NCBI GenBank assembly: GCA_017430225.1 | Contig: JAFRNK010000058.1 | Coordinates: 1-53,408 of the forward strand | Source of the DNA: Clostridia bacterium | GTDB lineage: Bacteria > Bacillota > Clostridia > Christensenellales > Aristaeellaceae | Reading direction: 5' to 3' | Length of the DNA stretch: 53,408 bases | Part shown: piece after piece, positions 17,380 to 23,047 of the stretch | Position numbering within the stretch: the stretch's first letter is position 1 | Layout of the letters: the number at the start of each line of letters is the position of its first letter | Position numbers and translations under genes: made by a program | Notes under the pieces: generated by a model | Told to the model about the DNA's origin: nothing | Database searches by the model: none | The model's input: only the letters and a program-made list of their open reading frames with translations

Positions 17380-17712
17380 AGGGGTTGTTGCACAACCCCT
17401 TCGATCAAATGGACACTCCATTTGATCGACAAAACGCCTTTTCCTCTCGTCCCTTCCTCAATTCGGCATTGTCGCGCTTCGCGCTCTGTGCCTCATTGCG
17501 GCTTCACCCGCCTTCATCGCCCACTGGGCGCGGCGGCCTCCGCCGCCCGGGCGGAAAAGGCGCAAGGAAAGCATTTTTGCTCTCGCAGGGCAAACTCTGC
17601 TTCGCAAAAATGCTCCTCGCACCGCACATGTCGCTGCTGCGGATTACAGTTGGAGGGACTGCGGTCCCTCCAAACCTCCCAGAGTTTTCCGATTACCCAG
17701 TAATCTGTGTCG
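17380..17712 (+). repeat. Dispersed multi-hairpin intergenic element, copy A
   Basis: This fills the gene-free 17298-17794. In order: a 9-bp hairpin (17380-17400); a perfect 13-bp hairpin starting TCGAT (17401-17429); a long outer stem CGCCTTTTCC/GGAAAAGGCG (17435-17444 with 17553-17562) enclosing smaller GC hairpins; a stem GCATTTTTGC/GCAAAAATGC (17571-17580 with 17604-17613); and a 10-bp stem with TGCG loop (17650-17673). Copy B is at 31935-32150; parts recur inverted at 22830-22872. Open frames exist on both strands but are poor coding candidates because stem bases covary between copies. Confidence 0.85.
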
Positions 17713-22194: not shown

Positions 22195-22234
22195 GCGAAT
22201 CGGGGGATTACAAAATTCTGACACAATGCATATA

Positions 22235-22263
22235 TTGACGCCGGATTTCCGTTGTGGTATTTT
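22235..22263 (+). promoter_or_regulatory. Promoter driving the manganese riboswitch
   Basis: TTGACG (22235-22240), 17 bases, TATTTT (22258-22263). The predicted start falls at the first bases of the aptamer. Confidence 0.7.
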
Positions 22264-22270
22264 ATATGTG

Positions 22271-22405
22271 TGCAAGGGAGTAGCCGATCGCCGGGCAGCC
22301 GGCGGGTTTGCATTCCGTCAACCGTCCGCAGAAAGCGGACCGGAACAAATGAGATGGCAAGACTTGCGCTGTGACAATGGCCACGGCGCGAGTCTTTTTT
22401 CGTAC
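22271..22405 (+). promoter_or_regulatory. yybP-ykoY manganese riboswitch with terminator platform
   Basis: The aptamer shows the class signature: stem P1 GCAAG/CTTGC (22272-22276 with 22363-22367), the conserved GGGAGTAGCC (22277-22286), two internal hairpins (22287-22308 region and GTCCGC-AGAAA-GCGGAC at 22324-22340), a CCGTCAAC segment, and the closing GGCAAGAC. In this class a Mn2+ ion bridges the two conserved loops. The 3' side of P1 also belongs to a terminator stem GACTTGCGC/GCGCGAGTC (22361-22369 with 22385-22393) followed by six T. Ligand-bound P1 would therefore break the terminator and switch the downstream gene on. The regulated gene is the small protein at 22444. Confidence 0.88.
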
Positions 22406-22443
22406 CGGGGCCGGCAGAATCGACCCATATGGAGGTACAGAAA

Positions 22444-22683
22444 ATGCTTGAATTCATCTTCATCATCTGGCTCGTTTCCCGTCTCCTGCTTCCCCGCTGG
22501 GGATATCGCCGCTATTATCGCCCGTTCTTCGGCCTGGGCTGGCTGCCCCTCGGGATGTTTATCGGCAGCCGGATGCGCCGCCCGCACTATGGCGAAGGCC
22601 CGCGCAACAGCCATGACAGCTTCTGCGGCCGCGGCCCCGAAGGCTTCGGTGAGCCGCATAACGGCAACGGATGGTGGTTCTGA
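22444..22683 (+). CDS. Small membrane protein under manganese riboswitch control, unknown function
   Basis: The 79-residue product has a hydrophobic N-terminal helix (about 1-18, MLEFIFIIW...), an Arg/Tyr-rich segment, a second short hydrophobic stretch (about 28-42, FFGLGWLPLGMFIG) and a Gly-rich polar tail with several His and one Cys. I do not recognise a family, and it does not resemble known genes of this riboswitch class (MntP, TerC/UPF0016-type or P-type ATPases). Start chosen because GGAGG lies 8 bases upstream of 22444. Its transcript is governed by the riboswitch, so a link to Mn2+ handling is a reasonable inference. It stands alone: a perfect 16-bp hairpin follows at once. Confidence 0.75.
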   Translation: MLEFIFIIWLVSRLLLPRWGYRRYYRPFFGLGWLPLGMFIGSRMRRPHYGEGPRNSHDSFCGRGPEGFGEPHNGNGWWF

Positions 22684-22684
22684 C

Positions 22685-22740
22685 GGGGCAGTAGCACTGC
22701 CCTTCGATCCGGTGGAAACATACAGTTTCCACCGGATCGA
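22685..22740 (+). repeat. Paired hairpins after the small protein (TCGAT hairpin module, copy C)
   Basis: A small GGGCAGT/ACTGCCC hairpin (22685-22702) is followed by a perfect 16-bp stem (22704-22719 with 22725-22740) that opens TCGAT and closes ATCGA. The outer bases match the hairpins at 17401 and 31935 while the inner stem differs on both sides. No T tract follows. Confidence 0.75.
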
Positions 22741-22759: not shown

Positions 22760-22918
22760 GCAAAAAGCCTTCCCCCGATTTCGGGGGCGGCGAAGTCCGC
22801 CGCGCCTTGCAGGCGAAACAGGCGGACATAGCCGCAATGAGGCACAGAGCACGAAGTGCGACAATGCCGAATTGAGGAACGGTCTGGTCGAACGCAGTGA
22901 GGTCGGATGAGGGTTGAT
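22760..22918 (-). repeat. Dispersed palindromic repeat, inverted copy with inner module
   Basis: Read leftward it starts CCCTCATCCGACC as at 53287, contains a 43-base module (22830-22872) shared with 17461-17503, and ends in a CCCCGA/TCGGGG hairpin and a T run. The module's small hairpin is GCAC/GTGC here and GCGC/GCGC in the other copy. Confidence 0.8.
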
Positions 22919-22945: not shown

Positions 22946-22974
22946 TTGACAAAATGCGGCAATCCACATAGAAT
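22946..22974 (+). promoter_or_regulatory. Promoter of the MATE-ATPase fusion gene
   Basis: Consensus TTGACA (22946-22951), 17-base spacer, TAGAAT (22969-22974). Confidence 0.85.
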
Positions 22975-23023: not shown

Positions 23024-23047
23024 ATGGAAAAAGGAGAGATCGGGCCT

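Follow-up and report, generated by a model that had tools for sequence, protein, structure and literature searches.

A putative P4-less relative of the yybP-ykoY riboswitch precedes genes for small membrane proteins in a lineage of Clostridia

Organization of the locus

The window, i.e., the whole 53.4-kb stretch of DNA analyzed here, carries on its forward strand a promoter-like site, a structured leader, an intrinsic terminator and a gene for a membrane protein of 79 amino acids. The promoter-like site is of the sigma-70 type (TTGACG and TATTTT separated by 17 nt, with a TG extension; 22235..22263), and two genomes of the same genus (G004 and G007) have TTGACA-18-TATATT at the corresponding place upstream of the small gene. 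The stretch TTCTGACACAATGCATATATTGAC (22216-22239), which reaches into the -35 box and is nearly retained in the copies of G004 and G007, is possibly an operator or an UP element.

The leader contains an aptamer that resembles yybP-ykoY but lacks P4, delimited on the forward strand by the outer pairs of P1.1 (22270..22369) with our own covariance models and covariation. In the switch helix P1.1, the 5' strand GTGCAAG (22270..22276) is partnered with CTTGCGC (22363-22369). The word GGGAGTAGCC is read at 22276-22285; the L1 motif GGGAGTAG (22276..22283) lies opposite GGCAAGAC (22356-22363), shows little or no variation among 54 sequences, and is flanked by P1.2 (GCC/GGC, 22283-22285 with 22356-22358). 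The P2 hairpin follows (22287..22307, with a bulged G at 22304), then P3 (22308..22348), which is made of P3a (22308-22310 and 22314-22315 with 22343-22344 and 22346-22348), L3 and P3b (22324-22329 with 22335-22340); the word CGTCAACC is read at 22316-22323. The register of L3 with A41 is set by the L. lactis sequence. It fits the numbering published in PMC9190785, and makes the adenosine at 22320 the putative counterpart of the Mn2+-coordinating A41 of L. lactis and A48 of X. oryzae described in the cited sections of PMC9190785 and PMC6754395. The place of P4 is taken by a junction linker of seven unpaired bases, ATGAGAT (22349..22355), of which 22351-22354 form the GARA part.

The intrinsic terminator (22359..22400) includes the 3' strand of P1.1 in its 5' arm and ends in a T-run; its hairpin (22359-22396) has a stem of 15 pairs that takes in the P1 3' strand. 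All of the aptamer words, P1 arms, terminator and promoter that the first-pass annotation had claimed for this leader can be read in the sequence. Downstream, a Shine-Dalgarno sequence (GGAGG, 22431..22435) precedes the small gene (ATG at 22444 to TGA at 22683), which has homologues following this riboswitch in other genomes, G004 and G007 among them. An alternative ATG at 22429 stands 5' of the GGAGG ribosome site, and the start codon is at 22444. The small gene is followed by a perfect 15-bp inverted repeat devoid of T-run, the arms of which were read from the sequence (22705..22739). It is probably transcribed alone, since the gene that follows it on this strand, starting at 23024 and encoding MatE plus HATPase domains, has a promoter-like site of its own (22946-22974). 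A dispersed repeat of 98 bases also occurs in the window in inverted orientation, at 17451-17548 and 22785-22882, with 84% complementarity.

Relatives of the aptamer and covariation

When 250 genomes of the window's bacterial family were searched with a word pattern made of L1 and L3, 35 were matched, against a single match with the reversed control pattern. These matches split into two groups, group A resembling the window and group B having mostly TCAACATACTGG as L3. A covariance model, R1, was built from seven group-A sequences; at E<=0.01 it detected 55 sites, spread over 45 of the 308 family genomes and 8 of 50 genera. A second model, R2, searched in other families of the class, matched 30 of 391 genomes, the window's genome included. 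The window aptamer itself scores 123.6 bits with R1 and 100.3 bits with R2, and belongs to the training alignments of both. Evidence drawn from R1, R2 and the protein profile A4 described below is in part circular, as all three were made from riboswitch-linked loci.

Alignment A3 comprises 54 of the 55 sites; the weakest, L098 (G005:C171), was left out. Across these sequences the R1 structure is paired in 88.1% of cells, with both sides changed in 22 of 26 pairs. The covariation score of 0.467 compares with 0.190 after shuffling and at most 0.068 with slid partners, and none of 500 shuffles reaches the observed value, with the caveat that the alignment was fitted to R1. The two halves of P1.1 are paired in 78.9% and 94.9% of cells (both sides changed in 6 of 7 pairs), P1.2 in 97.5%, P2 in 86.3% (6 of 8 pairs changed on both sides), P3a in 96.6% and 81.3%, and P3b in 88.4%, with both-side changes in 10 of 11 pairs of P3. 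L3 reads CGNCA, its metal-site A and the preceding C being present in 54/54 sequences. P4 is absent from all 54 aligned sequences, which have between P3 and P1.2 a short linker of the GARA type (G in 51/54, A in 54/54, R in 54/54 and A in 54/54).

Covariation also carries the inner structure of the aptamer, because minimum-energy folds of the window lack the consensus P3a and pair part of L1 near L3. The first-pass annotation had proposed a mutually exclusive terminator, and the 3' strand of P1.1 is indeed predicted to be used in the terminator at 54 of 55 sites, the 5' arm lying at or beside the P1 3' strand; the lone site devoid of terminator is L098. Shuffled downstream sequence gives such an overlap at 8.3 sites on average (range 3-13). 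When the full leader of the window is folded, the terminator forms and P1.1 does not (z -3.98 versus shuffles). When the leader is cut before the 3' arm of the terminator, P1.1 closes, a less striking result (z -2.15, with 11 of 200 shuffles equally good). Taken together, the two folds match what an ON switch requires. A promoter-like pair lies at most 60 bases upstream at 26 of the 55 sites (shuffled mean, 2.16).

Group B, found in the same bacterial family, comprises 27 loci, of which 17 precede mntP-like genes (assigned by eye, one Pfam-tested). It shares L1, P1-P3 and the lack of P4 with the window type, but differs from it by its L3, which is mostly TCAACATACTGG as in the RF00080 consensus, by another linker, and by the apparent lack of the small protein behind it. 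At six group-B loci (L018, L020, L022, L024, L031 and L032), the P4-less riboswitch stands before a gene for a protein that looks SRPBCC-like by eye rather than before mntP.

Comparison with known riboswitches and Rfam models

The four-way yybP-ykoY RNAs (RF00080; L. lactis yoaB, X. oryzae, E. coli mntP and alx) share with the window an L1 GGGAGUAG opposite GCAAGAC, helices P1.1/P1.2, P2, and P3 with the invariant adenosine in L3, as well as a P1.1 switch helix competing with a terminator. Unlike these RNAs, the window type has no P4, carries a GARA linker instead, is missed by RF00080 and has a small protein as its main target. According to the cited sections of PMC9190785, PMC6754395 and PMC11087558, helices P1-P4 of the yybP-ykoY aptamer dock at L1 and L3, and phosphates hold the Mn2+ together with N7 of the invariant adenosine, A41 or A48.

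The search with RF00080, in which the first-pass annotation had named the lack of a significant match as a refutation of its reading, came out negative to the letter. On 611 and 141 bases of the window, no match was found at the gathering cut-off (45 bits), nor even at E<=10, and no Rfam model exceeded its threshold. RF00080 likewise gave no match at E<=0.001 in the window's own genome, and none at E<=1 at 14 other group-A loci. Searched on 20 loci, it matched eight at E<=1, and seven of these eight have an mntP-like gene next (by eye); of the 29 P4-less sites from class families other than that of the window, two matched at E<=0.1 and none reached the cut-off. RF00080 is a poor test for P4-less forms, as even mntP-linked P4-less copies score no more than 20-29 bits where 45 are required.

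A three-way junction is already known in kind. The cited parts of PMC9495176 describe a three-way-junction yybP-ykoY aptamer that responds to Mn2+ and Ca2+ at mgtA of S. pneumoniae, and the title of a work cited in PMC9331361 refers to a Mn-sensing riboswitch activating a Mn2+/Ca2+ ATPase in Streptococcus. The mgtA switch has its three-way junction in common with the window, and precedes a gene for a cation transporter. We regard the window RNA, as judged from its sequence and those of its relatives, as a real yybP-ykoY-type aptamer that has a predicted three-way junction and no P4. The attribution to yybP-ykoY made in the first-pass annotation holds for L1, P1.1/P1.2, the L3 adenosine and the competition with the terminator, and fails for the RF00080 score and P4. 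Since anatomy and switching layout fit but model score and P4 do not, the element, which likely works like a yybP-ykoY switch, would best be named a P4-less relative.

The sole end-to-end Rfam match of the window aptamer, terminator included, is to RF02617 (SSRC10) and is insignificant: 17.5 bits (E 0.97), or 13.4 bits on a shorter stretch, for a gathering cut-off of 56 bits. SSRC10 of S. pyogenes has a different target gene; it is reported as an sRNA with a Northern signal, encoded immediately 5' of a gene for a putative calcium transporter (PMC3675131, cited part). Four of 29 related class sites match RF02617 at E<=0.1 (29-41 bits, at most 40.5), all under the cut-off. These four sites (L173, L181, L195 and L197) are P4-less and precede exchanger and ATPase genes. 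A second SSRC10 match in L173 (2626-2752, reverse strand; 45.1 bits, E 3.5e-5) lies outside the site that brought this locus in. Given its position and its matches to P4-less sites before exchanger and ATPase genes, SSRC10, although filed as an sRNA, may be a streptococcal metal riboswitch of the mgtA type.

The small protein family

The small protein is encoded behind 38 of the 55 R1 sites, in 37 genomes and in each of the eight genera that have the RNA, so that the recurrence of homologues behind the same riboswitch, suggested as a check in the first-pass annotation, is borne out. Thirty-five of these genes were found by a rule for open reading frames (ORFs), one (G001) after correction of its start, and two that are cut by contig ends (G005:C214 and G494:C146) by eye. 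The ORF rule found none at the 29 sites from elsewhere in the class, outside the window's family, and none at 30 sites of the other P4-less type (26 group-B loci and four sites from other families of the order, some with little downstream sequence; L017 with none). On both strands of the 53.4-kb window it picks out this small gene only. Differences between same-genus copies fall at the three codon positions as 46/32/79 (sum of three pairwise comparisons), the third-position excess expected for a coding gene. Weak further matches appeared in the homologue search in G084, G091 and G096.

The 36 aligned members begin with ML (MF in three) and all have a hydrophobic N-terminal segment of 15 residues. 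The first-pass annotation had counted one or two hydrophobic segments: the first is universal, while a second passes the cut in only 1 of 36 members and falls just under it in the window protein. The tail, described there as rich in His, Cys and Gly, is rich in Gly and moderately so in His but not in Cys, and is better described as rich in Gly, Pro, Arg and aromatic residues (G 28%, P 14%, R 13%, F 11%, H 8%, M 7%, W 6%, C 0.6%, D+E 1.7% and K 0.1% in the family); the window protein has one Cys and three His.

As the first-pass annotation had remarked, the protein belongs to no known family, in so far as no credible match was found among Pfam (36 members), NCBIfam (three members) or PHROGs (four members). 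The window protein has no Pfam match at E<=1, and a match of one of the 36 members to DUF4131 (E 0.01) was rejected as not credible. When the 308 family genomes were searched with profile A4, made from the 36 proteins, 49 of them yielded 55 matches in total. By our own reading, 37 of these are located at the riboswitch and 18 elsewhere, a proportion biased upward because linked members had gone into the profile. Among the 18 unlinked matches, at least seven (L152, L153, L154, L156, L158, L159 and L164) are clear small genes, and the RNA model gave no match at E<=1 in their retrieved flanks.

Over 299 genomes of the phylum, A4 matched six, the window's included, and yielded no convincing relative outside the bacterial family; matches in the five other genomes lie inside open frames of 273-825 aa, look compositional and were not retained as relatives. 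A pattern search for the small protein in genome contigs returned 41 stretches, none of which was confirmed. A stricter pattern, applied to 84,980 named genomes, gave 22 stretches, all from Clostridia, Clostridiales or Christensenella metagenome assemblies, 13 of which have a rule-positive ORF behind the site; these overlap the 308-genome family set and thus do not constitute independent evidence. A search of open-licence papers found no small-protein family as the main target of such a riboswitch, and nothing on this small protein under SPFH proteins, flotillin, OAD, small proteins under riboswitch control or three-way junctions.

Other genes behind the switch

First genes were classified by eye, both at the 17 remaining family sites and at the 29 sites found elsewhere in the class, and ten proteins were Pfam-tested. 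At the 17 family sites (one exchanger and one MntP tested), six encode an exchanger, two MntP, three other small membrane proteins, two an SPFH protein in first position, two an RALNSL protein unaccompanied by the small gene, one an ArsB/CitMHS-like protein, and one is unclear; 9 of the 17 stand before transporters. The 29 class sites (three representatives tested) precede genes for exchanger-like (13), OAD beta-like (eight), P-type ATPase-like (seven) and SPFH-like (one) proteins. In Clostridia, OAD beta-type Na+-pump subunits were seen behind P4-less yybP-like aptamers at L170, L171, L183, L188-L190, L193 and L198, and also at L015; a membrane protein of 40-47 aa comes next in seven of the eight class loci (Pfam PF03977 for L170, assignment by eye for the remaining loci).

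In the window's genome the RNA occurs three times, before the small protein gene, before a Na_Ca_ex exchanger gene (C106) and, as a weaker copy, before a gene for a CitMHS-type transporter (C39); no such switch was found at mntP of this genome. In G001, the small gene, a gene for a 663-aa protein and an exchanger gene follow one switch on the same strand. A flotillin-like SPFH protein is encoded 3' of the small gene in five loci (one Pfam-tested). More generally, SPFH/flotillin-like genes lie directly behind the riboswitch or the small gene at L119, L121, L115, L084, L086, L095, L079 and L192 (Pfam PF01145 for L121 and L079, assignment by eye for the rest).

At all 10 sites of genus g16 the first gene encodes a 136-139-aa protein with the motif RALNSLR or RALNNLR, or a closely similar one, and such a protein occurs also in G106; the small gene is kept at eight of the ten g16 sites despite the intervening protein. 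This helical-looking protein, with the signature REAR..G.RALN.LR, is encoded behind the riboswitch, and 5' of the small gene where the latter is present, at L099, L101, L102, L104, L105, L107, L111, L112 and L123-L125; one member searched against Pfam gave weak sub-threshold matches only.

The commonest L3 core, CGTCAG, is found before 26 of 38 small-protein genes and 5 of 6 exchanger genes, and L3 at the two mntP-linked window-type sites reads CGACA, not CGTCA. Since the commonest letters at the metal site do not differ between switches of small-protein genes and those of exchanger genes, the switches of these two kinds of targets likely have one ligand.

Proposed mechanism and alternative explanations

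Transcription from the promoter-like site (22235-22263) would produce a P4-less aptamer consisting of P1, P2 and P3. At high levels of Mn2+ or of a similar divalent ion, L1 and L3 would dock around the ion and hold P1.1 shut. P1.1 would then be unavailable to the terminator and RNA polymerase would read through, whereas scarcity of the ion would let the P1.1 3' strand pair into the terminator and transcription stop. The protein produced would have a single membrane segment at its N terminus, followed by a cationic, aromatic tail rich in Gly and Pro, which is probably cytoplasmic according to the positive-inside rule. The small protein would belong to a cation-overload regulon of the cell, shared with the exchangers and further transporters that copies of the switch precede. 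It would most likely act as a membrane accessory, either modulating an exporter or scaffolding with neighbouring SPFH proteins. We consider this account as a whole, a yybP-ykoY-type transcriptional ON switch feeding a small membrane accessory of a cation response, to be probable. As far as sequences can tell, the switch is well supported, the ligand moderately and the role of the small protein weakly.

The natural ligand of the same RNA architecture could instead be Ca2+ or another divalent ion, the small protein then serving a calcium or general cation response. Na+/Ca2+-exchanger-type targets (6/55 sites in the family and 13/29 outside, by eye) outnumber MntP (2/55 and 0/29), the three-way-junction mgtA aptamer binds Ca2+ tighter than Mn2+, and yet is activated more by Mn2+ (PMC9495176, cited part), and yybP variants with other divalent ligands are expected according to the cited part of PMC7266159. 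Against Ca2+ stand the retention in 54/54 sequences of the adenosine whose N7 selects Mn2+ and the presence of MntP among the targets, and annotation as an exchanger family leaves the ion unfixed. We thus regard Ca2+ or another ion as an unlikely but serious candidate, and Mn2+, with moderate confidence, as likelier than Ca2+.

It is about equally unlikely, in our estimation, that the riboswitch is real and the small protein a general envelope or stress protein placed under its control, with a role unrelated to metal. Such a role would agree with the relatives devoid of switch in their retrieved flanks (at least seven), with the SPFH proteins next to the small gene in five loci, and with a tail (G 28%, P 14%, R 13%, K 0.1%) that is unlike that of a metal-binding protein and lacks typical Mn2+ ligands. 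It is opposed by the presence of the gene at 38 of 55 switches in eight genera and by the transporters that follow 9 of the 17 other sites. The composition of the tail bears equally on the metal chaperone envisioned in the first-pass annotation: a Mn2+ chaperone is unlikely given the scarcity of acidic and Cys residues (D+E 1.7%, C 0.6%, for H 7.7%).

Much less probably, the product could be the terminated leader itself, acting in trans as an sRNA like SSRC10 of S. pyogenes, with an incidental ORF. SSRC10 provides the only full-length Rfam match of the window (17.5 bits, E 0.97) and reaches E<=0.1, below its cut-off, at 4 of 29 class sites, but the third-position excess within the ORF and the maintenance of the small gene behind another protein at eight of ten g16 sites argue against it. 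A chance resemblance, with no riboswitch but just a terminator and a GGGAGTAGC word, would agree with the absent RF00080 match and is nonetheless hardly tenable, as it is contradicted outright by covariation and disfavoured by the 55 sites, the conserved metal-site letters and the terminator overlap.

Our best guess for the role of the small protein remains a membrane accessory of a cation-efflux regulon. The link to an exporter is suggested solely by the shared putative riboswitch control and by gene order in a single genome, G001. A conceptual precedent exists in E. coli, where MntS has 42 aa. This very small Mn2+-homeostasis protein may inhibit the exporter MntP (PMC4361602, cited part) and would be the closest analogue; unlike the window protein with its proposed ON control, MntS is made at low Mn2+.

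Significance

The compact P4-less form is missed by the standard Rfam model, and because RF00080 misses P4-less sites (0/29 at the cut-off), SPFH proteins and Na+-pump subunits, among other targets, stay hidden. A single genome with three copies of the RNA makes a change of ligand among yybP variants testable.

Mn2+ riboswitches in the reviewed literature control mainly exporters, whereas here a small protein is encoded by the first or second gene at most sites. On the sequence evidence, this undescribed protein family appears to be the main target of the P4-less switch in one bacterial family. We tentatively envision, with rather less than even confidence, that these tiny cationic, aromatic, single-pass proteins are not metal binders but a dedicated effector of Mn2+/Ca2+ overload, working with exchangers and SPFH scaffolds. 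They would then form the main target of a three-way-junction switch in a Clostridia lineage known here mostly from metagenome assemblies, and would act by controlling exporters or membrane organization. The linkage to a riboswitch offers a direct handle on what the small protein responds to.
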